A stretch of DNA of 57,523 bases from Candidatus Schekmanbacteria bacterium (GTDB lineage: Bacteria > CSSED10-310 > JACPHN01), in the NCBI GenBank assembly GCA_016188575.1, contig JACPHN010000108.1, positions 1-57,523 on the forward strand. Reading direction: 5' to 3'. Under the pieces are notes generated by a model. It was given only the letters and a program-made list of their open reading frames with translations. It had not been told where the DNA came from and searched no databases. A program made the position numbers and the translations under genes. Below, one piece after another: positions 26,804-48,670 of this stretch. Numbering within the stretch: the first letter of the stretch is position 1; each line of letters opens with the position of its first letter.

Positions 26804-26933
26804 ATCTGAACCCACCGCCTGGTCGACTGCACGCTGAGTGGAAAGCGCATCACGAAGATCCCCACCTCGCCTCCCCGCGCAGGCGAGGGGAGGAGGGCGC
26901 TCGCGTCAACGCCGAGCAGACAAGGGATCGACG
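26804..26933. repeat. Dispersed inverted-repeat element, copy A
   Basis: This copy begins CTGAACCCACCGCCTGG and contains GAAAGCGCATCACGAAGA, the hairpin around CCTCCCCGCGCAGGCGAGGGG, and a degenerate right end near CAAGGGATCGAC. It is about 130 bp and lies between the acetoacetyl-CoA synthetase and histidine kinase genes. It matches the copies at 32945, 37191 and 48533. The rest of 26646-27056 holds the minus-strand promoter and no gene. Confidence 0.7.
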
Positions 26934-27056
26934 GCCGGCCACCCGCTGGCGAAATGGCCGCAAACGGGCTATGCTAATGCCGCTCGCTAGCAGTTCCGGA
27001 GGCGGTGCGGTGGAGGCGTGCTCGGACACCCTGAGCCTTGATCGTGGCATGACGCC

Positions 27057-30000
27057 GTGAACGTGGCACTGATTTGTGACACGGGGCCATCCTGCCGCTG
27101 TCGAGCACTCGCCGCGGCTGCCGGCGGGCACGGCCTGCGCATTACCGAGATGACGGCCGCGTCCGCTCTTGCGAGTGGGAATCGCGAGAGCGGAATCGCC
27201 ATCCTGTGCGCGCTCGATCCGCGAACAAGCCGCGCCCTCCCGGAAGCGGCCCGCGCGTTCCTGTCACCGAAGCGCCCGCCGCTAATGCTGCTGGTACCTA
27301 CTCTCCGGCAGGTCGACATCGGGCCACTTCTCGATACCGGTGTCGCCGACATCTGCGCCGCCGATGATCCTCTGCGGCTGGTTTGCCGCCGCCTGAAAAA
27401 CGCCGCGCGGCCCAATCACGGCAACGGCGTCGCCGCCATGGACTTGACGCCCTACCGCCGCGTCGTCGGCATTCCCCGCGCTTCCTTCGTGTATTCGCAC
27501 AACCCGCACGGGGTATTTACATTTCTCAGCCCCACGGTAACGGACGTGCTCGGGTATTCTGCGGAGGAGTTCTGCACGCACTACACCGAGTATCTCACCG
27601 CCAACCCGATCAACGAGCTCGTCGTCAGTCACACCGACGGCAGCCTGCGCGGCGAGGTGCAACCGCCGTACGACGTGGAGCTCTACCGAAAAGACGGCTC
27701 GGTTTGCCATCTCGTCGTCAGCGAGGTTCCCGTCATCGACGAAACGGGACAGGTGGTGGCGGTGGAGGGGCTGGCTACGGACGTCACGGAGCGGGTCGTC
27801 GCCGAAGAAAACTTGAAGCGCTCCTATGCGATTCTGGAGGCCCTTATCGAGAACACGGGCGATTTCATCCTCTACTCGGACGAGTGCGGCTTCCCGGTTT
27901 TCTTCAACACCGCCTACGCGCACATCATGATGGATGTCTTGGGGCTCGAGATGCGGCCCGGGATCAAACCGCACGAGCTTCTGCCTGAGGCCGCCGATCG
28001 GGAGTTCTGGGACCAGTGCCATCGCCGCGTGCTCGCCGGCGAACGCTTTTCCTTCGAGTACCGGATTCCCCTAGGTGAGCCCAGGTACCTGGAGGTGCGC
28101 TACAACCCCGCCATAAAAGATGGCAAAGTCATCGGCTTCTCCGAGATTTCCCACGACATCACCGCTCACAAGCTCGCGGAGCAGGAGCTCCGCAAACACC
28201 GCGATCAACTCCACGAGCTGGTGCGGCAGCGCACGGTGGAGCTCGAGAGCAAGGAACGCCGCTATCGCACCTACGTCGACGCGGCTCCCCACGGGATCTT
28301 CATCTTTGATGCGCAGGGCCGCTTCCTCGAGGCGAACCCCGCAGCCTGCGAGCTGACCGGTTTCGGGGCCGCCGAGCTCCGGGGCCTGTGCCTCGCGGAT
28401 CTCGTGCATCCAGACGACCGCGCCGATTGCTGGCGACTGCTGTCCGAGCTTCTGGAGCGGGGAAAGATGTCGGCCGAGCTTCACTGCGTCCGCGCCAACA
28501 AGTCCGACCTCTACCTGTCGCTGGCAACTGTCGAAGTCGCTCCGGGCCGCTATCTGGGTTTCGCCGAGGACACGACCGACCGCAAGCACATGGAGGACGA
28601 CCTGCGCGCGAGCGAACGCAAGTACCGCGACCTCGTGGAGACCTCCCAGGATCTCATCTGGCAGTGCGATATCGAAGGCCGTTTCACATACCTGAATCCC
28701 GCCTGGGAGAAAACGCATGGCTTGCCGCTCGGCGAGATGCTCGGCAGGCGCTTTGCGGACTTCGTGCCGCCGGACGAAGCCGCGGCCTGTAGCGAAGCGT
28801 TCGAGCAGTGCCTTCACGAGGGTAACCTCGTTGGCCTCGAAGCCGCTCACGTGGCCAAGGACGGCAGAGTTGTGCACCTCATCGTCAATGCCATTCCGCT
28901 GCTCGCTGACAGCGGCTTTGTCGTCGGCACGCAGGGAACAGCTCACGACAGGACGGCAAAGAAGCTGCTGGAGGAAGAGCTCCGCGAGAGCCGGCGTGAG
29001 CTTGAGCAGGCCAATCGCATGCTCCGCCTGGTGCTGGACACCATTCCTGTCCGGGTGTTCTGGAAGGACTTGAGTCTGGCCTACCTCGGGTGCAACCTTC
29101 CCTTTGCCCGGGATGCCGGTTCCGAGTCCCCTGAGGATCTGTTGGGTCGCAATGATTTTGACATGGTCTGGCGAAACGAGGCGCCCCGCTATCGCCTCGA
29201 CGATCGGCAGGTGATCAGCACGGGCATCCCGAAGCTCGGCTTCGACGAGCCCCAGAGCACACCTGCCGGCACCACCATCTGGTTGCGCACGAGCAAGGTG
29301 CCGCTCCGTGACGGCGACGGCAAGATCATCGGCGTGCTTGGCACCTACGAAGATATCACCGAACGCAAGAACGCCGAACGCGAAAGGCGCGAGCTCGAAG
29401 AGCAGGTCCGGCACGCGCAAAAGCTGGAGAGTCTGGGCGTGCTGGCGGGCGGCATCGCGCACGATTTCAACAACTTGTTGACGGCGCTGTTTGGCGGCAT
29501 CGACCTTGCTCTGCTGCGCCTGGGGCCGGACCAACCCGCCCGCACCCATCTCGAGACCATGGCGACAGCCGCAGCGCGCATGGCCGAGCTCACCAACCAG
29601 ATGCTGGCGTACGCGGGGAAGGCGCACTTCGAGCAGAGCCTGGTCGACATCACCACCGTCGTCCGCGACATGAGCCCGCTGCTGCAAATGTCCGTGGCGA
29701 AGACGTCAAAGCTAGCGTTTGACCTGAGTATCGCCCTGCCCATGGTGAACGGCGACCCTGCACAACTGCGACAGGTTCTTCTCAATCTCGTGACCAACGC
29801 CTCCGAAGCGCATGATGGCGCTCACGGAGAGGTCACGGTTTCAACTTTCGCAGGGCCCTTGCCCGACCTCGAACTTGCCGAGCTCGTTGGCACCCTCGAT
29901 ATCGATGCGGCGACCGCCGTCGTCATCGGCGTCAAGGACCGCGGCCGCGGCATCGAGCCGGAGATCCGCCACAAGCTGTTTGACCCGTTTTTCACGACCA

Positions 30001-30566
30001 AATTCACGGGGCGAGGTTTGGGACTGGCCACCACCCTCGGTATCGTAAAGCAGCACGGCGGGGCTATCGTCGTGCGCAGCACGCCGGGGAGCGGAACCAC
30101 TTTCTATGTGCTCCTGCCCGCCCTCACGGTGGCCTCGTCCGCGACCGAGTCCCCGGAGCCCCCCACAGCCCAGGGCCTGGCGCGCTTCGGCGCCCGGGTG
30201 CTGCTCGCCGACGACAACGCGGACGTCCGGGAAACCGCCATCCTCATGCTGGAGTCGGTGGGGTGCGACGTCGTTGCAGTCGGCGACGGTGAGGCGGCGG
30301 TCGAAATGGTCCAGAGCGATGTAGGTGCTTTTCACATCGCGATTCTCGACGTCACGATGCCGCGTCTCGGCGGCATAGCGGCGCTCCAAAAGCTCAGAGA
30401 GCTGGCGCCGCGGGTTCCCGTCGTGCTCGCCAGCGGGTACGCGGAAGAGGACGTCGCGCAGCGGCCCGGAACCGCTGGAGCCGCCGCCTTCCTGCACAAG
30501 CCGTTCAACCTCTCCGAGCTGCGGGAGGTTCTGCACCACGTGCTGCGGGTGCGATCAATCCCGTAA
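27057..30566 (+). CDS. Multi-PAS hybrid histidine kinase
   Basis: A 1169-residue cytoplasmic sensor kinase. Residues 1-110 resemble a degenerate receiver-like domain. About five PAS domains follow between ~130 and 770, several ending in the typical DITERK or DVTERV motif. The dimerisation/phosphoacceptor site is AGGIAHDFNNLL with His802. The ATPase domain has NLVTNASEAHDG and DRGRGIEPE. A C-terminal receiver has LLADDNADV and Asp1098 in AILDVTMPRL. No membrane segment is seen, so it senses an internal signal. The start is GTG. Such kinases pass phosphate from His802 to Asp1098 and on to a partner not in the window. Its last 62 bp overlap argC. Confidence 0.92.
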   Translation: MNVALICDTGPSCRCRALAAAAGGHGLRITEMTAASALASGNRESGIAILCALDPRTSRALPEAARAFLSPKRPPLMLLVPTLRQVDIGPLLDTGVADICAADDPLRLVCRRLKNAARPNHGNGVAAMDLTPYRRVVGIPRASFVYSHNPHGVFTFLSPTVTDVLGYSAEEFCTHYTEYLTANPINELVVSHTDGSLRGEVQPPYDVELYRKDGSVCHLVVSEVPVIDETGQVVAVEGLATDVTERVVAEENLKRSYAILEALIENTGDFILYSDECGFPVFFNTAYAHIMMDVLGLEMRPGIKPHELLPEAADREFWDQCHRRVLAGERFSFEYRIPLGEPRYLEVRYNPAIKDGKVIGFSEISHDITAHKLAEQELRKHRDQLHELVRQRTVELESKERRYRTYVDAAPHGIFIFDAQGRFLEANPAACELTGFGAAELRGLCLADLVHPDDRADCWRLLSELLERGKMSAELHCVRANKSDLYLSLATVEVAPGRYLGFAEDTTDRKHMEDDLRASERKYRDLVETSQDLIWQCDIEGRFTYLNPAWEKTHGLPLGEMLGRRFADFVPPDEAAACSEAFEQCLHEGNLVGLEAAHVAKDGRVVHLIVNAIPLLADSGFVVGTQGTAHDRTAKKLLEEELRESRRELEQANRMLRLVLDTIPVRVFWKDLSLAYLGCNLPFARDAGSESPEDLLGRNDFDMVWRNEAPRYRLDDRQVISTGIPKLGFDEPQSTPAGTTIWLRTSKVPLRDGDGKIIGVLGTYEDITERKNAERERRELEEQVRHAQKLESLGVLAGGIAHDFNNLLTALFGGIDLALLRLGPDQPARTHLETMATAAARMAELTNQMLAYAGKAHFEQSLVDITTVVRDMSPLLQMSVAKTSKLAFDLSIALPMVNGDPAQLRQVLLNLVTNASEAHDGAHGEVTVSTFAGPLPDLELAELVGTLDIDAATAVVIGVKDRGRGIEPEIRHKLFDPFFTTKFTGRGLGLATTLGIVKQHGGAIVVRSTPGSGTTFYVLLPALTVASSATESPEPPTAQGLARFGARVLLADDNADVRETAILMLESVGCDVVAVGDGEAAVEMVQSDVGAFHIAILDVTMPRLGGIAALQKLRELAPRVPVVLASGYAEEDVAQRPGTAGAAAFLHKPFNLSELREVLHHVLRVRSIP

Positions 30567-31503
30567 GCTCATCGAAGCCGCATGCCAGGTTGAGATTCTG
30601 TATCGCCTGCGACGCTGCGCCCTTGAGAAGGTTATCGAGCGCCGCAACCACGACGCCGCGCCGCCCCCCCGCTGCGACTGCGATCCCGCCGATCGCGATC
30701 GCCGGCGTGCCCCGCACGTCCCGAATCTCCGGCGGTGCGGCGGTGATCCTCACGAGCGGCTCGCCGCCATATTGCTCGGAGTACCGTCGGCCAAGCCCCG
30801 CAGCGGACTGTTCCTCGCCAAAGGTGAGGGCGATCGTCAGGCTAATGCCGCGGAAGAACTGGGCAACGTGCGGCGTGAAGTGGACCGACATCCCGAGGTG
30901 CCGAGACACCTCGCGTTCGTGCACGTGCCCTACGAGCTGATACGCCAGCAAGTTGTCGTGCAGCCGATCGGGGTCATTTCGCTCCGAAGGTGTCGCCCCG
31001 GCACCGCTATACCCCGAAACGCCGAAGATCACGGGGGGTGCCACGAGCAAGCCGCGAATGGGCCACAGGGCGAGCTGCATGCCGGTCGCATAACAACCTG
31101 GGTTGGCGATGCGATGGCTATTCTGCACGCGATCCCGGAAGAGCTCCGGTACCCCGTACTGCCACTGTGCGTCGAACCGATGGTCGGCGCTGACATCCAC
31201 GATGACCGCGTGTGGAGCACGGCGGCTGATCGCCTCGACATACGACTCCGACATGCCGTTTGGCAAGGCCAAAATCCAGGCGTCAGCACCTCGCGATGCC
31301 GCCTCGTCGGCCGGCAGGTCCTCGAACAGAAGATCCTCCGGTGCGCCCGCGACGTGGTCCTGAACCCGTTGGCCGGCCAGTGACCTGGATGCGGCAAATG
31401 CCGGCTCGAAGCACGGGTGACGCAGAACGATGCGCAGCAGCTCGACACCGACATGTCCGCGCGCACCGACGACTGCAACTCGCCGTTTCTCGCGCTCCGT
31501 CAC
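30505..31503 (-). CDS. argC: N-acetyl-gamma-glutamyl-phosphate reductase
   Basis: The third enzyme of arginine synthesis, reducing N-acetylglutamyl phosphate to the semialdehyde with NADPH. The 332-residue product begins RVAVVGARGHVGVELLRIV (Rossmann fold). The active-site Cys is in NPGCYATGMQL, and the conserved HVAQFFRGI lies near the substrate-binding His. I place the start at GTG 31503, with GGAGGAG five to eight bases upstream; an in-frame ATG at 31524 lacks such a site. It follows the fused argB/argA gene on the same strand, forming an arginine operon. The 3' end overlaps the histidine kinase gene. Confidence 0.95.
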   Translation of the reverse strand: MTEREKRRVAVVGARGHVGVELLRIVLRHPCFEPAFAASRSLAGQRVQDHVAGAPEDLLFEDLPADEAASRGADAWILALPNGMSESYVEAISRRAPHAVIVDVSADHRFDAQWQYGVPELFRDRVQNSHRIANPGCYATGMQLALWPIRGLLVAPPVIFGVSGYSGAGATPSERNDPDRLHDNLLAYQLVGHVHEREVSRHLGMSVHFTPHVAQFFRGISLTIALTFGEEQSAAGLGRRYSEQYGGEPLVRITAAPPEIRDVRGTPAIAIGGIAVAAGGRRGVVVAALDNLLKGAASQAIQNLNLACGFDELTGLIAPAARGAEPPAARRG

Positions 31504-31542
31504 GGCCAGCTCCTCCTCTTCCATGCCAGGGACGGCGCCATC

Positions 31543-32850
31543 TCAGCCGGCGAGCGTCGCAGGAAAAGCGATCGCCGACTCGATGCATTCCTTGACTTCG
31601 TCGAAACTTTCCAAACCATACCAGAAGATGGTCCACGGGCCCTCCCGCCAGCTTCCCTGCGACTGCTGAAAATACCACTCGCTCACGGGATTGTCCCGGC
31701 GAGCGCGCCAGAACAGCTTGGGATGGTCACGTCGCATCCGCACCCACAAAGACGTTCCGATCCCCTCTCCTTGCGCCCGTTGGGTCACGGCGAACTTGTC
31801 GAGATACGGTATGGAGCTTGGGCGCAGCAAGATCGCGGTCGCTCGATAGGATTCCGCAAGGTAGACGCGATAGAAGCTCCTTGCCGTAAAGTAATCCTCC
31901 GCCAGCTTGCGCTCGAAGCACCGCTCGAGTAGCTCGCGCAGGCGCTCGATGTCGAGGGCGGACAAATCCTGATGAGTCTGGATGCGCTCGCCACGGCGCA
32001 CGAGTGTACCCGAGCCGCGGTGGGTGAACAGCTCGCGAGCGAGATGATCCGGGGAAGTGATGGATACCGATGACGTGGTGGGCAAGCGGCCTAGCAGGTA
32101 ATGGATTTCTTGAACTTTCAGGCGCATCCCGGAGTGAATCCACGGCTGGGCCATCAAAGTTTCATAGTCTTCTTCCAGGTTGATGGACGAAATCACTTTC
32201 CCCTCGCCGTCGAGCAAACCGCCTGTCTCCGTGAGGAACACGATCTTGAACGGTTTTATGGCCACCGCAAGCTCGCGCGCGGCAACGTCGGCGTTGATGT
32301 TTACGATCTGTCCATGGCGCGTTTCACCCAGGCTCGCGAGGATGGGAAGGTGCCCAGAGCGGATGCTGGAGTCGATGGCCTCCAAGTGAACCTGGGTCAC
32401 CTGGCCGACGAGCCCAAACTTCTCGGGTTCAAGAAGCTCGGCTTCGAAAACTCCGGAGGGGATGGGTCGAGCTCTCGTACCCAGATCCTCCAGCGCCTCG
32501 ACCAAACGGAGGTTCTCCTGCTGGAACACGCGCCTGGCAACCGTCAGCGTGGGGGGGCAGGTGACGCGAATTCCATCGAGCTTGTTCGTCTCGATGCCGG
32601 CGTCGCGAAGCGCATCGTTGAGCTGTGGGCCGGCGCCGTGAATAACGATGGGGTAGAGTCCAACGCGGTGCAGAAAAGTCAGTGATGAAGCCAGGCTCGC
32701 AATATCGTCGCGCAGGATGGCTCCTCCCACCTTGATGATTGCGAAGTGCTTGGACTCGACGCTCGAGAACAGCTTCAGGTAGAGATCGATTTCCTTGCTA
32801 CTCGCGATATTCCGCAGCAGCCTGACAATGATATCTTGCGTTGTCTTCAT
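31543..32850 (-). CDS. Bifunctional N-acetylglutamate kinase / N-acetylglutamate synthase
   Basis: A 435-residue fusion. The amino-acid-kinase domain (residues ~30-270) has AIIKVGGAIL, VIHGAGPQLNDAL and INADVAARELAVAI. The C-terminal ~150 residues are a GNAT-type NAT domain of the DUF619 class (AVTQRAQGEGIGTSLW, then FWRARRDNPVSEWYF). This layout is known from Xanthomonas-type bifunctional enzymes and resembles animal and fungal synthases; it makes acetylglutamate and then phosphorylates it. In related enzymes arginine inhibits the kinase or synthase part. The ATG at 32850 is chosen; a GTG lies five codons upstream. No strong ribosome-binding site is visible. argC follows within 40 bp. Confidence 0.92.
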   Translation of the reverse strand: MKTTQDIIVRLLRNIASSKEIDLYLKLFSSVESKHFAIIKVGGAILRDDIASLASSLTFLHRVGLYPIVIHGAGPQLNDALRDAGIETNKLDGIRVTCPPTLTVARRVFQQENLRLVEALEDLGTRARPIPSGVFEAELLEPEKFGLVGQVTQVHLEAIDSSIRSGHLPILASLGETRHGQIVNINADVAARELAVAIKPFKIVFLTETGGLLDGEGKVISSINLEEDYETLMAQPWIHSGMRLKVQEIHYLLGRLPTTSSVSITSPDHLARELFTHRGSGTLVRRGERIQTHQDLSALDIERLRELLERCFERKLAEDYFTARSFYRVYLAESYRATAILLRPSSIPYLDKFAVTQRAQGEGIGTSLWVRMRRDHPKLFWRARRDNPVSEWYFQQSQGSWREGPWTIFWYGLESFDEVKECIESAIAFPATLAG

Positions 32851-32902
32851 GTGCGTACCCGTCACGGCAGGCTACGGCCTGGAACAAACCTGGGGCATTT
32901 TG

Positions 32903-32931
32903 AGCGTAATGAGGGAGGAATACCGTGTCAA
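32903..32931 (-). promoter_or_regulatory. Sigma70-type promoter of the arginine genes
   Basis: On the minus strand TTGACA (32931-32926), a 17-base spacer and TACGCT (32908-32903). The -35 box lies 13 bp from the end of repeat copy C. Transcription would start about 45 bp before the ATG at 32850. Confidence 0.7.
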
Positions 32932-32944
32932 GTGAGGCAACACG

Positions 32945-33082
32945 CCTGAATCCACTGCCTGTTCGAGCTCGTCGCGACTGCCCCCCCTCCACCGCTCCCG
33001 CCGCTTGCGGGGGGAGAGGTCGAGGATGGTCTTCGTGATGCGCTTTCCGAGCATCTTGCAGCCGCCCCGGCGGGAGATTCAG
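32945..33082. repeat. Dispersed inverted-repeat element, copy C
   Basis: A 138-bp copy starting CCTGAATCCACTGCCTG and ending in the degenerate inverted terminus GGCGGGAGATTCAGA. The centre folds as a GC-rich hairpin around CGCTTGCGG, followed by GGTCTTCGTGATGCGCTTTC, the complement of the block seen in copies A and B. It has the same orientation as copy D. The rest of 32866-33279 contains the arginine promoter and no gene. Confidence 0.75.
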
Positions 33083-33279
33083 ACACGCGTACCCGAGCGG
33101 CGCCGAAAAGGTTGCCGGCGGCGCGCCGCGATGATAATTTGGAGCCTGTAGCTGGCAGATTCCGCTGTCGGCCGAATGTCGGGTGATGCTCCTTACAAGT
33201 GACCACGCATAGTGCACTCGCCATGGTGTAAAACCCGCCCGGCCGACGCCCAGATTCCCGTCATCTGGTGCCTGAGCGC

Positions 33280-34026
33280 ATGACCGACACGACCTCCGCC
33301 ATGGATCCGCACCGGTTTCGACCGGGGAGAGATTTTTTCGTCGAGCTCGGTTTCTACGCCCTGTGCTTGCTGTGCGCCGGCTTCTTGCGCGCGTATGACC
33401 CCTACCTCATGGCGCTTCTCTTTACGCTCATTGTCCTCAAGGAGCTTTACTGGCGCACTCCGGGCGATGGCTGGTTCATCGCCGGCGGCGCGCTCTTCGG
33501 CGTTGGATTGGATCTGTTGTTTGTTTGGCGAGGGCTCCACAGCTACGTTCACGTCGGAGCCGCGGGCGTGCCGCTTTGGTCCTTTGCCTTCTGGTCGGTT
33601 TCCGTGATGCTGCTGCGGCGCATCGTCACCTACGTCGACTTCCTGTCGGCGCCGGACGAGCAAACCCGGCTGTTTGCCGGGAAAGCCGGTGAGCTCGTGA
33701 TCTTCGCCGTGCTCTCGGCGGTGCTATGGTTCTGGCGCCCCGGCGAGGTCATGTCGGCGGCATGCATTCTGGCTGCCCTTCTGGTTCGACTCGCAGCAGT
33801 TCGCGAGAGTGGTGATACGGTCGTGTTTCTCCTCGTTGCGCTGGGATCCGCGATGACCGCCTCGTTCTTTGTCGCTCGCCACGTGTTGGCTTTCCCGCAC
33901 AGCGAATACGCCGCCGTTCCTCTCTGGTTGCCGCTGTTCTGGGGCTACTTTGCGCTACTGGCCCGCCGCGCGATTCGTCCGCTCGAGCATCGGTTGAATC
34001 CGGTAGTGCCCTTCGCCTACATGTAG
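33280..34026 (+). CDS. Polytopic membrane protein, unknown function
   Basis: A 248-residue protein with about six to seven predicted membrane helices (for example LGFYALCLLCAGFLRAY and FFVARHVLAFPHS on each side of the central helices). No family was recognised. Conserved-looking features are the WRTPGDGWF loop and GLHSYVHVGAAGVPLW. The ATG at 33280 is chosen; a GTG 12 bases earlier is in frame. It is followed three bases later by a glycosyltransferase gene, so the two are probably co-transcribed and may act together in surface glycan or lipid work. Confidence 0.7.
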   Translation: MTDTTSAMDPHRFRPGRDFFVELGFYALCLLCAGFLRAYDPYLMALLFTLIVLKELYWRTPGDGWFIAGGALFGVGLDLLFVWRGLHSYVHVGAAGVPLWSFAFWSVSVMLLRRIVTYVDFLSAPDEQTRLFAGKAGELVIFAVLSAVLWFWRPGEVMSAACILAALLVRLAAVRESGDTVVFLLVALGSAMTASFFVARHVLAFPHSEYAAVPLWLPLFWGYFALLARRAIRPLEHRLNPVVPFAYM

Positions 34027-34029
34027 GTC

Positions 34030-35073
34030 ATGCCGGACTTCGCGATCGAGCTGTCCGTGGTGATTGTGCACTACCGCTGCGCGGAGGCCATCGCCCGCTG
34101 CCTGGAGAGCCTGGCGGCGTTCCCCCCGGAAGCCCCGTGGGAGGTGTTGATTACGGATAACAGCGCGGGCACCAGCCATGCGCTCGAGCGTCACGGTATC
34201 GAGGGCGCATTTTCGGCCTCGCCCGCGCCGCCGCTCAAAGTCGAGATCCTGGCGGCCGAGCGCAACGTGGGCTTCGCTGCGGGCGTCAACCTCGCGATCG
34301 GGGAAGCGCGCGGCAGATTCCTGTTGCTGCTCAATCCCGACCTGGTGGTCCGCGAGCACACCATCGACTACTTGCTGCGGTTCGCTCGCGAGCGGGGCGA
34401 TGGCCTGGGCGCCGTCGGACCGCGGCTGCTCTACCCTGACGGGACCCTACAGCCGTCACGCGGGACGTTTCCGACCTTGCGCTCCACGCTGATGCACCTC
34501 AGCGGAGTCCGTCGCCTGCTCCCGCTCGATCGCCTACTCGCTGGCCGGGGCGGTGTCTTCGGCGCGACCCTTGGCCGGTACTGGGCGCAGCTTGCGCCGT
34601 TGCCAGCCGCGCCCGAGTGCGTAGACTATACGACGGGCGCGGCCCTGCTCGTCCCGGCCGCGGTCATCGACAGAATCGGCGCTCTGGATTCTGGCTTCTT
34701 TCTATTCTATGAGGAAATCGATTGGGCAAAGCGCATGGACGAAGCCGGTTTGGCGCGGTTCTTTCATCCGGGTGCCGTGGCCATACACACCGTTGGGGAA
34801 TCCAGTGGCGCCACCGATGAGGATCGCGCGCGCGTCGCGATCGAGCGCCTGCGCAGCATGCTGCGCTATTTTGCCAAGCACTCTCCGGCGCTTCTGCCAC
34901 TCGTGCGCGCGGTGGTCGCGGCGACGGCACTCGGGCGTCTGGCGGCGGCGGCGGCGCGGCGGGATCGCTTGGCGATCGGCGACGGCTGGAAGCTCGTGCG
35001 CGAGAGCACCCGCTGGCGCCACATTCGCGCTCGGAACCGCGCGGCCGAGGACGACCGCGCGGCTAGCCGGTAA
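34030..35073 (+). CDS. Family 2 glycosyltransferase
   Basis: A 347-residue GT2 enzyme. LSVVIVHYRCAEAIARCLES starts the nucleotide-binding fold. NVGFAAGVNLAIGEARGRF leads to the DxD-like LLNPDLVV, and FFLFYEEIDWAKRMDEAG is the catalytic-acid region typical of rhamnosyltransferases. The C-terminal ~80 residues are Arg/Ala-rich. The ATG lies three bases after the membrane-protein stop. It resembles the glycosyltransferase at 20495 in motif order, but they are not close copies. The sugar and acceptor are unknown. Confidence 0.88.
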   Translation: MPDFAIELSVVIVHYRCAEAIARCLESLAAFPPEAPWEVLITDNSAGTSHALERHGIEGAFSASPAPPLKVEILAAERNVGFAAGVNLAIGEARGRFLLLLNPDLVVREHTIDYLLRFARERGDGLGAVGPRLLYPDGTLQPSRGTFPTLRSTLMHLSGVRRLLPLDRLLAGRGGVFGATLGRYWAQLAPLPAAPECVDYTTGAALLVPAAVIDRIGALDSGFFLFYEEIDWAKRMDEAGLARFFHPGAVAIHTVGESSGATDEDRARVAIERLRSMLRYFAKHSPALLPLVRAVVAATALGRLAAAAARRDRLAIGDGWKLVRESTRWRHIRARNRAAEDDRAASR

Positions 35074-35079
35074 GAAGCG

Positions 35080-37190: not shown

Positions 37191-37283
37191 CCTGAATCCA
37201 CCGCCGGTACGACTGCACGCTGTGCGGAATGCGCATCACGAAGACCCCCCACCTCACCTCCCCCCGCAAGCGGGCGGAGGGAT
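37191..37283. repeat. Dispersed inverted-repeat element, copy B (partial)
   Basis: It begins CCTGAATCCACCGCCGG, continues GACTGCACGCTGTGCGGAAT, then GCGCATCACGAAGACC and the hairpin CCCCCCGCAAGCGGGCGGAGG. The second half of the element is missing. It has the same orientation as copy A, opposite to C and D. It sits between divergent transporter and enoyl-CoA hydratase genes. Confidence 0.7.
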
Positions 37284-37312
37284 GGAACCTTTGTTGAAAG
37301 GAGGAAGAGGAG

Positions 37313-38098
37313 ATGGCGTACACGTCGATTATCCTGGACCTGGGCACGGTTTGCAGGCTGACATTGAACAGGCCGCAGCTACGCAACGCCATGACGCCGT
37401 TGATGGGAGATGAGATTGTGGACGCCGTCCGGATCATCAATGACTGCGGCGATGCCCGGCTCGTGCACGTGCGCGGCAACGGCGAGGCCTTCAGCGCCGG
37501 GGGCGATTTCACCTTCATTGAGCGCGGCGCCGCCGACAGCCCAGATGAGAATAGGATCACGCTGGTCAACTTCTATCGGCGCTTCTTGAGCATTCGCTCG
37601 CTGCGCGTTCCGTCGCTCGCCGTCATCCACGGCGCCGCCGTCGGGGCGGGGCTCGGTCTGGCGCTTGCCTGCGATCTTCGCTACGCGGCCTGCGATGCCC
37701 GACTCGCCCTCAACTTCACCCGCATCGGTTTGCACCCAGGACTCGCTACGTCCTTTCTTGTGCCCGGCCTGATCGGGTTGGATCGTGCCGCGGAGCTATT
37801 TTTTACCGGCCGCTTCGTCAACGGGGAGGAGGCTGCCGAGCTCGGGCTGGTCACGGCTGCGGTGCCCCGCGAGCAACTCGAAGCGCTGGTCTCGGAAAGG
37901 ACGGAGCAGATCCTCGCGGCCGCACCGCTGGCGGTCGCCCAGGTGAAAGAAACGCTTTCGCACGGCGTTGAGGCGCGCCTGGAAGAGGCCATGGCACGCG
38001 AAGCTGCCGCGCAGTCCATTGACTTCGCCAGCGACGACCTCGCGGAGGCAATCCGCGCCTTTCGCGAGCGCCGGACGCCGACCTTTCGGCGTCGTTGA
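37313..38098 (+). CDS. Enoyl-CoA hydratase/isomerase family protein
   Basis: A 261-residue crotonase-fold enzyme. It has RNAMTPLMGDEI, the oxyanion-hole segment GEAFSAGGDF and the second GAAVGAGLGLALACDLRYA. The acidic catalytic positions of classic hydratases are not obvious: the second is replaced in the NFTRIGLHPG stretch, where hydratases often have E. It may therefore be an isomerase or another crotonase-fold reaction. The ATG has GGAGGAAGAGGAG directly upstream. It is a single gene on this strand, probably cytoplasmic fatty-acid or related CoA-ester metabolism. Confidence 0.85.
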   Translation: MAYTSIILDLGTVCRLTLNRPQLRNAMTPLMGDEIVDAVRIINDCGDARLVHVRGNGEAFSAGGDFTFIERGAADSPDENRITLVNFYRRFLSIRSLRVPSLAVIHGAAVGAGLGLALACDLRYAACDARLALNFTRIGLHPGLATSFLVPGLIGLDRAAELFFTGRFVNGEEAAELGLVTAAVPREQLEALVSERTEQILAAAPLAVAQVKETLSHGVEARLEEAMAREAAAQSIDFASDDLAEAIRAFRERRTPTFRRR

Positions 38099-39294: not shown

Positions 39295-39323
39295 ATCGCA
39301 CCTCCTTGACCGTGGGGAAACCC

Positions 39324-39352
39324 ATATTGACATGGGCCCCGCGCTGGTGCAA
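39324..39352 (-). promoter_or_regulatory. Promoter of the RdgC-like pair
   Basis: On the minus strand TTGCAC (39352-39347), a 17-base spacer and CAATAT (39329-39324). It lies about 30 bp before the GTG start with its strong ribosome-binding site. Confidence 0.6.
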
Positions 39353-39537
39353 GGACATCGCGAGCGTCGGTTCCTTGCCAAGCTCGGTCGGTGCGGGTAT
39401 GCTGCTTGGTCGTAACCGTCGTTCGGATCCGCGGCGGGGAATGCAACCTCTCCGAACCGCTATCTGCGCTCCGCCGGTCGGATCGGGGTCAAGGCAGTGC
39501 CGCCAGGGAGTTTGGGATTTCGGTAGGAATGCTCAGG

Positions 39538-40203: not shown

Positions 40204-40344
40204 AGTGGAGGTGCCACTCGGGACCTGGTCTGAATGGTACCAAATACGCGTGTCTGGGATGCCGGCGTCGTGGGCGGTGAGCTTGAGCACGCCAGAGACG
40301 CGAAGATGGGTCCGCAGTGGCGGCCCGAGAAGGATACGTGTCCC

Positions 40345-40959: not shown

Positions 40960-40972
40960 CTCCGGTGCGCGG

Positions 40973-41293
40973 CTACGGTCGCGCGAAACTTTTTCCAAAC
41001 CGCTGCAGGAGCCCGATGTCGTTGGTCTTGAGGCGGCCACGCATGAAGTCTGCAGCGCCCGGCATCCAGCTCCCGAGAACCATGGCGCGAAACAGCTCCT
41101 CGGACGTTTTCAGAACGCAGTCCGCACGGTCACTGTGCTTGCCCTGGCGGTGGGACATGCCGTCCGGGCCGAGCTGAACTGTCCACTTCTGTTCGGGCAG
41201 CGCACCTAGCGTGAAATAATACGATGTTGCGGTCGAAAAGCTCTGGCGGTCGAAACGGCGCGCCATCTCCTGAAAGAGCTCGTCCAGGGTCAC
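40973..41293 (-). CDS. SCP2 sterol-binding-domain protein
   Basis: A 106-residue single-domain SCP2 protein, with WTVQLGPDGMSHRQG and ADCVLKTSEELFRAMVLGSW, then FMRGRLKTNDIGLLQRF at the lipid-binding end. Such domains bind hydrophobic ligands including acyl-CoA and sterols. The GTG has AAGGAG six bases upstream and overlaps the stop of the binding-protein gene (GTGA). It is the last gene of the proC-hyuA-hyuB-binding-protein run. Its link to the upstream genes is unknown. Confidence 0.85.
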   Translation of the reverse strand: MTLDELFQEMARRFDRQSFSTATSYYFTLGALPEQKWTVQLGPDGMSHRQGKHSDRADCVLKTSEELFRAMVLGSWMPGAADFMRGRLKTNDIGLLQRFGKSFARP

Positions 41294-42327
41294 GGGTCAC
41301 TCCTTGATTTTGCTTGTTGGATCTTGCGCTGCTCGAGAAAGTCCCGGTACGCTTGCTGCATGATTCGTTCGCGCTCCTGGCCGATCGGGACGCCGTAGCC
41401 GGCCTCTCGCAGGTAACTAGCTTCGAGCCGATCGAAGTCCGCCCACGTGCACGTGGAGAAGCCCTCGATGTGGAACGTATCCAGCAGCGCCAAACCTCCC
41501 GGGCGGTTGCGGACGTCGCCGAGAAACGCAGTGCGCATCTTTTCGACCCGTTCGGGCGGCGCACCGACCCAGGCGACGACCCCGCCATAATTCACATCTC
41601 GACTGACATAGATTTCGCGAACCGAGCGCCACACCCGCTGCGCCTTGGTGGTCATACGTTCGAGTATCGGTCGCATGACGATGGCAACGTCGGCGGCGTT
41701 AAACAGCAAGGACGTCACTGTTGAAGTCGGTGAATCCGTTTCGATCACCTTGGAAAAATGCGAGCGAATGTTAATCTTGTTATCGAAGGCAATCGCATCC
41801 ATCCAGTGCGGAGCGTCCGCACCGACGTCCGCCAGGGCGACGATCTTACCTCGCGCTTGCTCGAGCGTCTGGATATCGGAATTTCTGCGCACGAGCACCG
41901 AATACTGGAATGTGTGCGTACCGCCGAACGACGCGCACACGATGGGCTCGTATCCGTAGAGATAGCCTTTTTGCACCATATAGGACACGGACATCGAACC
42001 GAACCACGGCATGTCCTCGCCCTGAGCAACCCAGCGATCAAACGCGCGTTCCATATCCTCGGCGTGCCGAAATAGCTGCGTATCGAGGTCAGCCACACCG
42101 TGGGACTTCAGGAACACGGCGAATGCATCGAGGCCCTCGACGACGCGCGTCGGCAGGAGGGCTGAAGCGTCCGGATTGAAGTAGAAAAAGCGGGATCCCG
42201 GAAGCTGCGCCTCATCGGTCGGGCCGGTCGGTTGCTCGCCGCTGGCACGGGCCGGCGCCACGAGCATGGCGAGCACAAGCGTTGCGCACAACCCTGACCA
42301 AACGCCGGGACGCAGCCTCAACAGCAC
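41290..42327 (-). CDS. PhnD-like periplasmic substrate-binding protein 1
   Basis: A 345-residue exported protein with a signal peptide ending near AMLVAPARASG. The fold is that of PhnD/phosphate-phosphonate-type binding proteins: YEPIVCASFGG is the usual ligand-loop region and ARGKIVALADVGADAPHW follows. The C-terminal block has HIEGFSTCTWADFDRLEASY. It is clearly paralogous to the 460-residue protein upstream (shared GYLYGYEP, VWRSVREIYVS, EGFSTCTW). The start is GTG with GGAG ten bases upstream. No permease or ATPase gene is adjacent, so it may work with a distant transporter or as a sensor subunit. Confidence 0.8.
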   Translation of the reverse strand: MLLRLRPGVWSGLCATLVLAMLVAPARASGEQPTGPTDEAQLPGSRFFYFNPDASALLPTRVVEGLDAFAVFLKSHGVADLDTQLFRHAEDMERAFDRWVAQGEDMPWFGSMSVSYMVQKGYLYGYEPIVCASFGGTHTFQYSVLVRRNSDIQTLEQARGKIVALADVGADAPHWMDAIAFDNKINIRSHFSKVIETDSPTSTVTSLLFNAADVAIVMRPILERMTTKAQRVWRSVREIYVSRDVNYGGVVAWVGAPPERVEKMRTAFLGDVRNRPGGLALLDTFHIEGFSTCTWADFDRLEASYLREAGYGVPIGQERERIMQQAYRDFLEQRKIQQAKSRSDP

Positions 42328-42363
42328 CTTTTCCGAGCTCCACGTGCGCTTCCGTAGCGAAGG

Positions 42364-43746
42364 TTACTTGACCTGGAAGCTTCTCTTTCCTGAGGACAGG
42401 CGGGTTCCGTTTGCAAACGATACGACTACTTCATAATCCAGGGTGCTGACCTGACGGCCTTCCAGTACCAGCGGGCAGAGGTAGCGTCCCTGAGTCCATG
42501 GCGAGAATCCCTCGCGCTGCCCTTTCTTGCCGTCAAGCTGATAATCTAGCGCGATGTCCTTCACTTCGCCAAGACTTTCCTTGACCTTGGCGATCACGAC
42601 AATGCTGCTGCCCATGGAGTCCAGGCGCACCGATGTCTCGATCTCCTCTGCGGTAGCCAGCGCTACACCAGGCGCGTCCGCGGCGCTGCCGCCGTCCGAG
42701 CCCGCTGGCTCACCCGCAGCGGGAGCGGTTGGCGCCGCGCTCTCCGGCTCCCCTGAGGGCGGCAAAGCGGCTGCGCCTGGTTCTGCCGGAAGCGCGGCAG
42801 GGGTGGCTCCGGGAGGAGCCAGGGCGCTGCGGATCGCGGCGGCGCGCTGCTCGCCGGAGACCACCTGCAGGCCGACTGCCTGCAAGTGCTTGCCCTCGCG
42901 CTGTTCCAGCTCAGCCCAGTCGCACGGTTCGAATCCATCGATGAAAAAGGCGTCCAGCACGACGTCGCCGCCCTTCATCTCGCCCATGTTGCCGGTGAGC
43001 GTGTCAGCGAAGCGCCTGGACAGGTCGTCCGGAGCGCCCGCCCATTTTACTACACAGACCATGGTGAGCGGTTCGGACGTGTAGATCTCCCGCACCTCGC
43101 GCCAGATCATGGCCGCCTTCTCGCTCATTCTCTCGAAGAGTTGCTTGCTCACCAGTGCCACGTCAGTTGTCCGAAAGATGACGGCCATGACCGATTCCGT
43201 CGGTCCGTCCGTCGAGACCACTTCGCCGAAATACTTTTCGAGCCGCACCTTCTCGTCGAACGCCGTGATGTTGGTCCACGCAACCTGCTCGCCGCCCGTA
43301 TTCGTCATGGATATTTTGGTGCCGTTGGCGTCCTGCAAGTTCTTGACCTGGGAGCCGCGGCGCGCAATCAAGGAGAGCTGCATGGTCTTGCTGCCGTCTC
43401 GCTGAGCACAAACGAGCGGCTCATAGCCGAACTGATATCCCTTATACAGCAAGTACCCGGACGGCAACACACCATACATCGGCATGGCACCCTCTTTGCG
43501 CCACTGCTCGAATGCGGCTTCTATATCTTTGGTCTTGTCGAAATACAAGGGCTCCAGATCAATAACGGCCTGTTTTTCGAAGAACTTGTGGTACTTCTCT
43601 AGACCTTCTTTGACATCCTCCTCATTGAGACCGGAAGAATCGAGGCTCAGAACGACGAATTTCGAGCGTGGGAGGTCCTCCGCCAGGGCGGAGGCTGCAA
43701 GCGACAAGCAAGCGACAAAGAGCACGTGCGAGCAGAATAACTTCAT
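42364..43746 (-). CDS. PhnD-like periplasmic substrate-binding protein 2 with C-terminal domain
   Basis: A 460-residue exported protein. The signal peptide ends ASALAED. Residues ~25-310 form the binding-protein fold parallel to protein 1 (GYQFGYEPLVCAQRDG, IWREVREIYTSEP and DGFEPCDWAELE). A Pro/Ala-rich linker of ~60 residues follows, then a ~110-residue domain that looks beta-rich (SSIVVIAKVKESLGEVKDIA), unknown. It starts ten bases after hyuB and stops 36 bp before protein 1, so all three are one unit. Tandem duplication of the binding fold is clear; the added domain is special to this copy. Confidence 0.78.
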   Translation of the reverse strand: MKLFCSHVLFVACLSLAASALAEDLPRSKFVVLSLDSSGLNEEDVKEGLEKYHKFFEKQAVIDLEPLYFDKTKDIEAAFEQWRKEGAMPMYGVLPSGYLLYKGYQFGYEPLVCAQRDGSKTMQLSLIARRGSQVKNLQDANGTKISMTNTGGEQVAWTNITAFDEKVRLEKYFGEVVSTDGPTESVMAVIFRTTDVALVSKQLFERMSEKAAMIWREVREIYTSEPLTMVCVVKWAGAPDDLSRRFADTLTGNMGEMKGGDVVLDAFFIDGFEPCDWAELEQREGKHLQAVGLQVVSGEQRAAAIRSALAPPGATPAALPAEPGAAALPPSGEPESAAPTAPAAGEPAGSDGGSAADAPGVALATAEEIETSVRLDSMGSSIVVIAKVKESLGEVKDIALDYQLDGKKGQREGFSPWTQGRYLCPLVLEGRQVSTLDYEVVVSFANGTRLSSGKRSFQVK

Positions 43747-43756
43747 GATCATCACT

Positions 43757-45421
43757 CTAGGGCCTGGAAACGATGTTTTCAACGACAGGTGCGGTGCCGC
43801 AACCCCACCCCCCACCGCCGGGAGTCTCGATGCCGATCGTGTCGCCGGGATCCAGGATGATGGAGCATTTCTCCGCAAGCGGCTGCGGATCCGACGCTCC
43901 GCGACGGCGCACCCAGACCTTGCCGCCGAGACCCGGACCGCCCCCACGGAGCCCCCATGGGGACCGCAGGTGCCGCTCCGCCAGTACTGTCGCCTCGACC
44001 TGGCTCATGACCTCGATCTCCCGAATCAACCCGTCGCCACCGCGATGTCGGCCATCACCGCCGGAGCCAGCCCGCACCCGATATTGCCGAACGCGCAGCG
44101 GATAGGCGTGCTCCAGAGCCTCGACGGGAGTGTTTAGCGTGTTGGTCATGTGCGCATGCGTCGCCGACGCCCCGGGTCCCGCCTGCGAAGCGCCGAGTCC
44201 TCCGGCGATGGTCTCGTAGTAGACAAAGCTCGTCCCCTTGCGGGGATCGACTCCTCCCAGCGTAAGGTTGCTCATCGTTCCACTGCTGGCGGCGGGAATG
44301 TGCGCGTCGAGCTGCGCCATGGCGCCGAACAGGGCGTCCACGACGCGCTGCGAAGTCTCGACATTCCCACCGGCGACGGCATGGGGTGGCGCTGGATCCA
44401 GAACCGAGCCGGGTGGGATATCGATGGTGACCGGATCCAGAAGGCCGGCGTTGGCAGGGACGTCCGCCGGCACCAGACAACGAACCAGGTACGCGACTGC
44501 CGACACCGTCACGGCTCGCGGCGCGTTCACGCAGCCGCCCGTCGCCGGCGCGGAACCCGCGAAGTCCACGTGTAGGCGTCCCGCTGCAAACCGCAGCGAC
44601 ACCGAAATCGGCAGGTCGCGCGCGCCACAGCCGTCACTGTCAAGAAAGTCCGTGAACGCCGCCTGCATGCCGTCGTATTGCGCCAGGTGGGTGCGAACCC
44701 GAAGCGCGGTGTACGCCAGAAGCTGCTCACCCCAGGCCAACACCTGCGCGGCGCCGTGCGCATCGCAGAGCTCGCGCACCCGCTCCACCCCCCTGCGGTT
44801 CGCGCCAAGTTGGGCGCGAAGGTCGCCGTCGCGCTCTTCCGGCGTGCGGACGTTGGCAAGGATTAGCCTCCACAGGTCGTCGCTCACGCGTCCCCCCGTA
44901 ATCAGCTTGACTGGGGGAATCCGCACGCCTTCTTGAAAGATTTCACGGGAGAGCGGCATGGATCCGGGGCTCATGCCGCCGACGTCCGCATGGTGAGCGC
45001 GGCTGGCGACCAGTAGGGAGGGCCGATCCGCGGCGTCGTCCAGGAACACGGGTGAGATCATGGTAATGTCCGGCAGGTGGCTTCCGCCAAAGTACGGATC
45101 GTTCACCACCGCGACATCTCCTCGGGCCAGCGGGAACTGTCGCAGCGCCGCCTGCACCGAGAACGGCATGGCGCCGAGGTGCACGGGAAGGTGCTCGGCC
45201 TGGGCCAGAAGTATTCCGGTACCGGAAAAAACGGCGCAGGAAAAGTCGCGGCGCTCCTTGATATTCGGCGACAGGGCACTCCGCATGAGCACGGCGCCCA
45301 TCTCCTCGGCGCATGACGAAAGCAGCAGTCTGAACACCTCGAGCGCCACGGCGTCGGCCCCGCGCGGCAGCGGTGAAGCGGCTAACGGCGGGGATTCCGC
45401 CGAGGAGGTGGTGGCGCTCAT
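43757..45421 (-). CDS. hyuB: Hydantoinase B / 5-oxoprolinase beta-type subunit
   Basis: A 554-residue HyuB protein. Landmarks are MGAVLMRSALSPNIKERRDF, the GDVAVVNDPYFGGSHLPDIT block and the C-terminal ETPGGGGWGCG. With HyuA it forms an ATP-dependent enzyme that opens 5-oxoproline or hydantoin rings, or an acetone-carboxylase-like complex. The ATG has AGGAG seven bases upstream and overlaps the hyuA stop (ATGA). Length is typical (~520-580). Which ring compound is used cannot be told from sequence. Confidence 0.92.
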   Translation of the reverse strand: MSATTSSAESPPLAASPLPRGADAVALEVFRLLLSSCAEEMGAVLMRSALSPNIKERRDFSCAVFSGTGILLAQAEHLPVHLGAMPFSVQAALRQFPLARGDVAVVNDPYFGGSHLPDITMISPVFLDDAADRPSLLVASRAHHADVGGMSPGSMPLSREIFQEGVRIPPVKLITGGRVSDDLWRLILANVRTPEERDGDLRAQLGANRRGVERVRELCDAHGAAQVLAWGEQLLAYTALRVRTHLAQYDGMQAAFTDFLDSDGCGARDLPISVSLRFAAGRLHVDFAGSAPATGGCVNAPRAVTVSAVAYLVRCLVPADVPANAGLLDPVTIDIPPGSVLDPAPPHAVAGGNVETSQRVVDALFGAMAQLDAHIPAASSGTMSNLTLGGVDPRKGTSFVYYETIAGGLGASQAGPGASATHAHMTNTLNTPVEALEHAYPLRVRQYRVRAGSGGDGRHRGGDGLIREIEVMSQVEATVLAERHLRSPWGLRGGGPGLGGKVWVRRRGASDPQPLAEKCSIILDPGDTIGIETPGGGGWGCGTAPVVENIVSRP

Positions 45422-47502
45422 TGGCGCGCTCCTGGCCGCGCGTAAAGGAAGAGAAAGCCGCGCTCGTCAGCGGTCGCCAGAAAATCCGCCGGAACCCAGG
45501 TGGTGGCGTGGTCTTCGCATACGACCGCAGGACCGTGCAGCTCGTCCCCTGGAAGCAGGTCGTCTCTGTCGACCGTTTGCGCCGCGGGCGTCCCGGAGCT
45601 CGCGCCGCCGGCGGCGCTGTGCGCGCGCAGCGCCTGAGGGCGGCGCCGAGCCCGCCGCCGGCGCCGGCCGGCGTGCGCGAGGAGACGCTTCTCAAGCTCT
45701 TCCGCGACAACGGGGGCGGTCCCTTCGCCGGCGACGACTACCTGAACGAGCTCTATTGGCCGATCGGGGAACGCAAATCCGAGCTGCGCCAGATGCGCGG
45801 CCGTGAAGGCGTCGGCCAGTATTGCGGTGAGCGGCGTGGGCAAGGTCCCCAGCACCTCGCGGAGAGTTGCCTCGGCGAGCACCTCACGCGGCGCGAACGG
45901 CTGCACGGATATCTCGTAGGATTGCCCAACGTACCGCATCTCGAAGCTGACGGTCGCAGTTACCGCGAGCTCGCCCTCGGCCGCGGCAGCGCGCATGACC
46001 TGTGCACACAGCTCGTCGACAACTGCCGGGACCCCGCCCGCCAGGGACGCATCGAGTGGCGCGAGCAGGGCCTTGGCGGCGCGCACAATCACAGGTGCCG
46101 CGAGCACGCCGAGCGCCGACACCAGGCCGGGTTCAGGCGGAATGATCGCCCGGCTGACCCCGAGCAACGTGGCCAGCTCGGCCGCATGCAGGGGCCCCGC
46201 CCCTCCAAACGCGAGCAGCGAATAGCCGCGGGGATCGATACCGCGAGCGACGGATACCGATCGGAGCGCAGTGAGCATCGCTGTATTCGCGACGCTCAGA
46301 ATGCCGCGGGCGGTTGCCTCCGGCGAAAGCCCGACCTGGGCGGCCAGAGAGCTGACGGCGGTCGCCGCCGCGGCGGCGCGCAAGGCCATACGACCCCCAA
46401 GAAAGCGGTGTGGGACCATGCGCCCACAGACCACGTGAGCATCCGTAACGGTCGCAGGCCCGCCGAAGCCAAAGCAGGCCGGCCCTGGTCTGGCACCCGC
46501 CGAGCTCGGCCCAACGCGCAGCAAGCCGCCTTGATCGCGCCAGGCGATGGAGCCGCCCCCGGCACCAACCGTGGCCACGTCGACCTGGTGCAGCCGAATG
46601 GGCAAGTCACCGATCCGCGTCTCCCTGGTGAGCGGAATGCGTCCGGCGATGAGCGCAACATCCGTTGAGGTTCCGCCCATATCCAGGCTGATGATATTCT
46701 CGTCGCCGATCATCTTCCCAAGCAGGTACGCCGCCCTCACTCCGCCAGCGGGGCCGGACAGCACGGTCCGCACCGGCATGTCGGCAGCCGCCTGCCACGT
46801 GGCGGCGCCACCGTCTCCGAGCACGACCTGCAACGCGGCAGGGCCCAACCCGCTGTGCAACCTGCGGAGATACCGCTGCATCAACGGTGCCAGGTAGGCA
46901 TTCGCCGCCGCCGTGCTGAGGCGTTCGAACTCGCGGTGCTCCGGGTTGATTGCCGCTGAGCAACACACTGGGATGCCGAGGTCGCGCAGCGCCGCTGCTG
47001 CTGCCGCTTCGTGATGCGGCGCCGCATACGCATGCAAGAATCCGATCACAACGCTTTCGGCCTTGCACTCGGCGAGGTCGCGTTTGATCTTCTCGAGGTC
47101 ACCGAGAGCGAGCGGGACGACCACCTCGCCGCGACAATCCAGCCGCTCGGTGACGGGGAAACGCAGGCCGTCGGCCACGAGCGGCTGCGCCCGGTGTGAG
47201 ACGGGGTCGTAGAGCGCCGGCCGGTTCTGTCGCGCGATACTGAGAACATCCTCGAAGCCGCGAGTAGCAACCAACGCCACGCGCGCGCCCGTGCGCGCCA
47301 ACAGCGCGTTGGTTCCCACGGTCGTACCGTGCCGTACTACTGACGACGACGGCTCGCCGCCGAGCCCTACCTGCTCACAAGCCTGGATGACGGCGTCCCC
47401 GGGATTTGCAGGCGTGGACGGGACCTTGACGAAGCGAATCCCCTCGGCCTCCAGGGTGACGAGGTCTGTAAACGTCCCACCGGTATCGACCCCGATCTGC
47501 AT
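45418..47502 (-). CDS. hyuA: Hydantoinase A / 5-oxoprolinase alpha-type subunit
   Basis: A 694-residue HyuA protein. The ASKHA ATP-binding start is MQIGVDTGGTFTDLVTLE. It has VVRHGTTVGTNALLARTGA and SLDMGGTSTDVALI, both typical, and GGGSIAWRDQGGLLRVGPSS. It partners hyuB. The ATG at 47502 has AGGAAG four bases upstream; the open frame further upstream has no family match. It begins 22 bp after proC, so a proC-hyuA-hyuB operon is likely. The C-terminal ~180 residues include the YVGQSYEISVQ motif. Confidence 0.93.
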   Translation of the reverse strand: MQIGVDTGGTFTDLVTLEAEGIRFVKVPSTPANPGDAVIQACEQVGLGGEPSSSVVRHGTTVGTNALLARTGARVALVATRGFEDVLSIARQNRPALYDPVSHRAQPLVADGLRFPVTERLDCRGEVVVPLALGDLEKIKRDLAECKAESVVIGFLHAYAAPHHEAAAAAALRDLGIPVCCSAAINPEHREFERLSTAAANAYLAPLMQRYLRRLHSGLGPAALQVVLGDGGAATWQAAADMPVRTVLSGPAGGVRAAYLLGKMIGDENIISLDMGGTSTDVALIAGRIPLTRETRIGDLPIRLHQVDVATVGAGGGSIAWRDQGGLLRVGPSSAGARPGPACFGFGGPATVTDAHVVCGRMVPHRFLGGRMALRAAAAATAVSSLAAQVGLSPEATARGILSVANTAMLTALRSVSVARGIDPRGYSLLAFGGAGPLHAAELATLLGVSRAIIPPEPGLVSALGVLAAPVIVRAAKALLAPLDASLAGGVPAVVDELCAQVMRAAAAEGELAVTATVSFEMRYVGQSYEISVQPFAPREVLAEATLREVLGTLPTPLTAILADAFTAAHLAQLGFAFPDRPIELVQVVVAGEGTAPVVAEELEKRLLAHAGRRRRRARRRPQALRAHSAAGGASSGTPAAQTVDRDDLLPGDELHGPAVVCEDHATTWVPADFLATADERGFLFLYARPGARQ

Positions 47503-47524
47503 TCGGCTTCCTGAGCGTTCCGAC

Positions 47525-48379
47525 TCAGCCTCGCTTTTCCGTGTTGCTCGCAGGCGCAACCAGCATCCTCGAAAGTTGCTCGCTCCGCTCGGTCGCGGTG
47601 ACGACGGCGCTGATGAGCATCGGGCGAAGCCCGTGGCGTTCGAGCTCGTGAATGGCGGCGATGGCGGTTCCGCCGGGGGTCGTAACCTGGTCGCGGAGGA
47701 CAGCCGGGTGCTCGCCGGTCTCCTGCACCAGTCGCGCCGCACCGAGCACCGCCTGCGTGGCCAGGCGCAGGGAGATCGGGCGAGACAGACCCATCTTGAC
47801 GCCGCCATCGGTCAGCGCCTCAATGACCATATAGATGTATGCCGGTCCGCTGCCGCTGAGCCCCGTAACCGTGTTCATCAGGTTCTCATCGTCGACAACC
47901 TCGACCCCGCCAACGGCCTCAAAGATCGCCCGGGCCATGGCGACGTGCGAGGAATCTGCGAGCTCACCGGGATAGATCGCCGTGGCGGACTCGTCAACGA
48001 GGGCGGCAATGTTGGGCATGGCGCGGACGACAGGGCACTGGCAGCCGAGCATGCCGGCGATGGCGCTGGTAGTCACGCCGGCGAGGATGGAGATAAAGAG
48101 CTGCTGATCGGTGACGCAGCCGCGAATCTCGCTCAGGACAGCGGTGGCCGCCTGAGGCTTGACGCAGAGAATCACGATATCGGCGCCGCGCACGGCCTTT
48201 GTGTTGTCGGTGGTGACGGCGATCGGGAAGCGCTGCTCGAGGCGCGCGAGCGACTTTTCGCGGCGCACCGTGGCAATGAGGTTGTCTTTCGGTGTCAGGC
48301 CGGCCTTGAGGATGCCGCCGAGCAGTGCGCCCCCCATGTTGCCGGTGCCGAGGATCGCGATTCTTTTGGTGGTGAGCAT
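47525..48379 (-). CDS. proC: Pyrroline-5-carboxylate reductase
   Basis: The last enzyme of proline synthesis, reducing pyrroline-5-carboxylate with NAD(P)H. The 284-residue product has KRIAILGTGNMGGALLGGIL at the start, ILCVKPQ, RAMPNIAALV, and the C-terminal TVTGLSGSGPAYIYM and TPGGTAIAAIHELE, all standard. The ATG at 48379 is the one that fits; ten further codons upstream are unlikely. It heads the proC-hyuA-hyuB-binding-protein operon. A promoter lies at 48493-48521. Confidence 0.95.
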   Translation of the reverse strand: MLTTKRIAILGTGNMGGALLGGILKAGLTPKDNLIATVRREKSLARLEQRFPIAVTTDNTKAVRGADIVILCVKPQAATAVLSEIRGCVTDQQLFISILAGVTTSAIAGMLGCQCPVVRAMPNIAALVDESATAIYPGELADSSHVAMARAIFEAVGGVEVVDDENLMNTVTGLSGSGPAYIYMVIEALTDGGVKMGLSRPISLRLATQAVLGAARLVQETGEHPAVLRDQVTTPGGTAIAAIHELERHGLRPMLISAVVTATERSEQLSRMLVAPASNTEKRG

Positions 48380-48492
48380 GAGATGAGGCTCCGATGAGGA
48401 TTGCGGCAAGACGACCGGCTGGCGGCCGCGTGCTCGGCGCTCGAGAGGACACTGCGAGCAGCCCGCAGCGGTGGGGATGGCGCCGCGGGGTT

Positions 48493-48521
48493 AGGGTACC
48501 TGCACAGCCGCGCGCCGTCAA
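48493..48521 (-). promoter_or_regulatory. Sigma70-type promoter of the proC operon
   Basis: On the minus strand TTGACG (48521-48516), a 17-base spacer and TACCCT (48498-48493). The -35 lies 11 bp from the end of repeat copy D. Confidence 0.6.
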
Positions 48522-48532
48522 GTCAACGGTGT

Positions 48533-48670
48533 CCTGGATCCACCCCCTGTTCGCCGTTGGCGTGACAGTGCCCCCCACCCCGCCTTCCCCTGCAAGCGGG
48601 AGAAGGTGAGGTGGGGGTCTTCGTGGTGCGCTTCCGCGCAGCTCGCAGGCGCCCAGGCGGTGGATTCAGG
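48533..48670. repeat. Dispersed inverted-repeat element, copy D (best preserved)
   Basis: 138 bp bounded by CCTGGATCCACCCCCTG (from 48533) and CAGGCGGTGGATTCAGG (to 48670), near-perfect inverted ends. The centre (about 48571-48617) folds as an ~18-bp imperfect hairpin with loop TGCAAGC. A short palindrome GTGGTGGATACACCAC follows at 48673-48688. No ORF is inside. The remaining gene-free DNA of 48380-49047 holds the promoters on each side. Confidence 0.8.

Follow-up and report, generated by a model that had tools for sequence, protein, structure and literature searches.

Four copies of a palindromic element

The window analyzed here is a whole 57,523-nucleotide contig (C227) of the draft genome of a Candidatus Schekmanbacteria bacterium, which comprises 9.2 Mb in 275 contigs. 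Four copies of a dispersed palindromic element lie in the window (Table 1), and their positions agree to within a few bases with those given in a preliminary description of the sequence. All four are located between divergent genes, a preference that is not seen genome-wide; copy C stops 26 bp short of the start codon of a gene for enoyl-CoA hydratase (37313-38098). Once the copies are brought into a common orientation (A+, B-, C+, D-) and aligned, they show the same left end, CCTGAATCCACCGCC, and the right end GGCGGTGGATTCAGG is present in copies B and D, absent from C and decayed in A. The shared ends, internal GCGCATCACGAAGA block and central GC-rich hairpin reported earlier are real features of the copies, and the genome-wide match counts given below place them far beyond chance.

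Table 1. Copies of the element in the window and component features of copy D
Feature	Positions	Strand	Remarks
Copy A	26805-26933	+	129 bp; right end decayed; flanks GCCA (26801-26804) / GCCG (26934-26937), 3/4 matching
Copy B	32945-33083	-	139 bp, near-complete; target duplication CACG / CACG (32941-32944, 33084-33087)
Copy C	37191-37286	+	right third missing
Copy D	48533-48670	-	138 bp, near-complete; target duplication GTGT / GTGT (48529-48532, 48671-48674)
Copy D, left terminal inverted repeat	48650-48670	-	CCTGAATCCACCGCCTGGGCG
Copy D, internal block	48618-48631	-	GCGCACCACGAAGA; consensus GCGCATCACGAAGA; most strongly conserved segment of the family
Copy D, central GC-rich hairpin	48583-48606	-	
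Copy D, right terminal inverted repeat	48533-48553	-	outer end at 48533

Abundance, ends and target duplication

A BLAST search of the genome with copy D retrieved at least 40 copies. The GCGCATCACGAAGA core 14-mer, with one mismatch allowed, matched the genome 212 times, compared with five matches for the reversed control; the 21-mer GCGGAAWGCGCATCACGAAGA (two mismatches) and the end motif CCTGAATCCACCGCCTGTTCG (three mismatches) gave 223 and 382 matches, respectively, and their reversed controls gave none. Searching 2.39 Mb of sequence with a profile located 109 loci, a density of 45.5 per Mb that is probably somewhat high because the sampled contigs were partly chosen for holding copies; a reversed-sequence control of the profile yielded no matches. 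Extrapolated to the 9.2 Mb genome, the family would number approximately 400-420 copies. The core was not found in 97 other genomes, seven of the same phylum among them, and an exact 22-mer had no match in the genomes of 84,980 species. The end motif was likewise missing from viral contigs and the core from plasmids. A lone end-motif match at three mismatches in the seven same-phylum genomes is taken as chance.

The consensus element, CCTGAATCCACCGCCTG...CAGGCGGTGGATTCAGG, is 140 bp long, which is also the modal copy length, and possesses 23-bp terminal inverted repeats with CC...GG ends. A 6-bp target duplication was first suspected by eye and was rejected in favor of 4 bp on the basis of a positional matrix. 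In this matrix of left- versus right-flank identity, computed for 58 unique full copies, four adjacent diagonal cells reached z values of 6.2-7.2, with nothing else comparable; the element is therefore bounded as CCTGAATCC...GGATTCAGG and accompanied by a 4-bp duplication. The target-site duplication is exactly 4 bp, with 4/4 positions matching in 22 and 3/4 in 17 of the 66 full copies, against 0.6 perfect pairs expected (maximum 4) from 500 shuffling runs, and the duplicated 4-mers are highly varied. Identity to the consensus averages 83% (range 69-93%), indicating that most copies are old.

Several variant forms were also observed. Three mini palindromes of 50-52 bp consist of the two ends only (L184:6252, with the duplication AGCA/AGCA; L187:14199; L140:15123). 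At three loci (L034, L036 and L041), the central hairpin is duplicated or extended, and at G000:C179:9772-9934, two like-oriented element ends are spaced 142 bp apart, perhaps representing adjacent or nested copies.

Genes were called with a simple dicodon-score caller of our own. For 58 of 85 copies, the overlap with these genes is below 10%; by comparison, random 140-bp placements land in genes 89% of the time. Most copies are intergenic.

Other repeats occur in the same genome. A second palindrome family, (TATC)TGTTCACC...CGCTTGCGG...GGTGAACA(GATA), has a similar central GC hairpin and different ends; six copies were seen in 2.39 Mb (L153:12749, L148:17378, L142:6165, L119:8210, L303:5913 and L314:1042). 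The central hairpin CCTCCCCCCGC-NN-GCGGGGGGAGG was counted 52 times outside and 64 times inside the 140-bp elements in 2.0 Mb, and this roughly equal frequency suggests an independent repeat module. There is also a third repeat, AATCGCCGCGGAACCGAGCGCAGCGAGGTC...CCCACCGCCTGCGG..., with GGCCTTCAGGCC hairpins in related flanks (L151:3064, L098:4222, L103:11161 and L220); in L220/L221, an IS1380 remnant is split by such a palindromic repeat.

A candidate mobilizing family and competing readings

The small size (140 bp), the lack of a transposase gene and the high copy number (~45 per Mb) of the element are those of a miniature inverted-repeat transposable element (MITE). Decayed IS1380-family (PF13701) transposases are present in the same genome, and their right ends share 13 bp with the MITE, but no left end was found and the likeness does not extend to the whole 23-bp repeat. 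Using the longest remnant as a DNA query, 32 matches were obtained, most of which reach one right end, ...GCCGGTGGATTCAGG or ...GGATTTAGG, i.e., CCTGAATCCACCGG. The terminal CCTGAATCCACCG of these remnants equals the MITE end over 13 bp; beyond this point, little similarity is left: one sequence reached p 0.01 against the MITE left end, and the other sequences gave no significant result. The remnants (L206-L233) almost always retain the right end, with 5' truncations at differing positions; internal fragments are few, and no left-end fragment was seen with this query, which itself lacks a left end.

Sixty relatives of this transposase were found in other bacteria, including complete elements with the same end type. 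For example, one relative (L238) has the arrangement TATA-CCTTGATCCACCACC ... GGTGGTGGATTACGG-TATA over 1862 bp, with the ends CCTTGATCCACCACC / CCGTAATCCACCAC and a TATA target duplication matching at 4/4 positions; another (L243) has the end CCTTAATCCACCG. Short imperfect inverted ends and short target duplications are likewise found in the IS1380 family (IS1247, ISPme1, ISEcp1; PF13701). In IS1247, the inverted ends are 16/13 bp and the DR is 5 bp (PMC3281130). The relatives found here bear CC..TGATCCACC-type ends, one of them with a 4-bp duplication. Unlike IS1380 insertion sequences, the present element has no transposase gene, measures 140 bp, exists in ~400 copies and would have been mobilized only in trans.

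The MITE reading put forward in the preliminary description is upheld by the hundreds of further copies, the conserved inverted ends, the 4-bp target duplication and the transposase remnants that share the element's terminal 13 bp. We consider it very probable that the family consists of 140-bp non-autonomous DNA transposons moved in trans by an IS1380-family DDE transposase. The elements would carry only the ends recognized by such an enzyme, an IS1380-type transposase acting in trans would have moved them, and insertions would persist where harmless, mostly between genes and occasionally in variable protein regions. The mobilizer is one that we infer, since the assembly yielded no intact IS1380 transposase. 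For the same reason, and because copies average 83% identity, the family is presumably now largely immobile.

As none of the IS1380 copies recovered from this genome has both ends, the mobilizer may instead have been a different, lost transposase with similar ends. A MITE of another DDE family, e.g., IS4/IS1634, IS5 or Tn3, is improbable. Several families have short target duplications and inverted repeats, and the genome holds 10 DDE_Tnp_1 matches; however, the terminal 13 bp are carried by IS1380 remnants, and, among the subset of transposase families searched, no such locus has the element ends as its own. None of the PF01609 / DDE_Tnp_1 transposases does so: the end matches near two of these loci (L198 and L199) belong to neighboring MITE copies, and that in a third (L195) marks where an IS1380 remnant terminates.

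The preliminary description had also suggested a REP-type family. REP/REPIN-type repeats mobilized by a RAYT (Y1) transposase would account for an intergenic, palindromic repeat with hundreds of copies and a GC-rich central hairpin. REP/REPIN palindromes, however, lack a target duplication. REPs are units of 20-40 bp (PMC3733652), whereas the elements described here are 140-bp units with 23-bp terminal inverted repeats, 4-bp target duplications and ends matching a DDE-type IS1380 element, and this origin is very unlikely.

A structured RNA, terminator or regulatory hairpin under selection is no better placed, and we give it hardly any weight: the predicted fold is strong and a 14-bp block without a pairing role is conserved, yet neither the inner stem (14 versus 9.2 +/- 3.0) nor the outer stem (27 versus 28.5 +/- 3.8) shows a clear excess of double compensatory changes over expectation, no Rfam covariance model matched in the window, and no T-run follows the stem. 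An RNA function was rejected on the lack of a covariation excess and of an Rfam match. Neighboring genes are oriented as expected from intergenic lengths (convergent in 13 of 58 cases, 11.2 expected), which gives no indication of a terminator or promoter role; the former was rejected on this gene context.

In-frame copies and relation to known elements

The preliminary description stated that the copies carry no ORF. The element indeed has no gene of its own, but four of the six reading frames of its consensus are open. Together with the duplication, an insertion adds 140 + 4 = 144 bp (48 codons), and the reading frame is thereby kept; this length and the several open frames would explain occasional survival within proteins. 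Six copies in the sampled sequence are predicted to lie in frame within genes (L019, L121, L149, L154, L164 and L095), as judged by a coding signal that flanks the copy on either side in the same frame. All six are sense-oriented, and five of them are read in the frame PESTACSTASCAESASRRPPTSPPPASGGRDGG... A seventh candidate (L118) was dropped, as it looked like two neighboring genes fused by an open frame; several long ORFs around elements, L118, L105 and L119 among them, looked fused or extended and were left uncounted. At three further loci (L024, L357 and L366), copies lengthen the C-terminus of an open frame.

The clearest case (L164) is a 140-bp copy with the duplication CGAG/CGAG that occupies residues 480-526 of a 1347-aa protein kinase/AAA ATPase and falls within the span of the Pfam AAA_16 match (366-591). 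In another kinase/ATPase (L019), the copy lies after the AAA_16 domain; the segment is absent from paralogues in the same genome, among which this region varies in length. Serine/threonine kinase-AAA_16 (STAND) proteins are abundant in the genome, and AAA_16-containing proteins hold four of the six in-frame elements. The strong one-frame bias of the local sample (5/6) is weaker genome-wide: in sense frames, among the matches listed, open frames of at least 500 aa include ~19 in the PEST frame and ~14 in the other. Because long open frames across the genome include both sense frames, no strong frame preference is claimed.

Rickettsia palindromic elements (RPEs) are ~150-bp palindromic, mobile sequences that occur both between genes and in frame within them, where they encode a recurrent inserted peptide (PMC10969869). 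By description, the present family is similar in being palindromic and in having intergenic and in-frame intragenic copies. It differs in its link to an IS family, provided by the ends and the target duplication, and in that only a small minority of copies lie in genes, compared with nearly half in the first RPE set. The bacterial MITEs Correia, ERIC, Chunjie and QMITE1/2 have inverted ends and direct repeats, are mostly intergenic, include truncated copies and show some overlap with the ends of genes (PMC10969869, PMC5896051). Compared by description, the present family is distinguished from them by its unrelated host and IS1380-type ends. No MITEs tied to IS1380 were found in the open-access literature searched; within that literature, the family is apparently undescribed, and it seems known in kind and new as a family.

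A bolder proposal is that this is an RPE-like family outside Rickettsiales with a nameable mobilizing IS family, phase-neutral (144 bp, four open frames) and seeding new protein segments (PESTACSTASCAESASRRPPTSPPPASGG...), in which tolerance was selected rather than being a side effect of GC-rich sequence. We regard this as doubtful. Most likely, the elements constitute a genuine, old, IS1380-dependent MITE family with a minority of RPE-like in-frame insertions. These findings provide a MITE family with its target duplication and likely mobilizing IS family from a sparsely sampled lineage. The in-frame copies further offer an RPE-like case in an unrelated lineage, in which the origin of protein insertions by transposition is testable.
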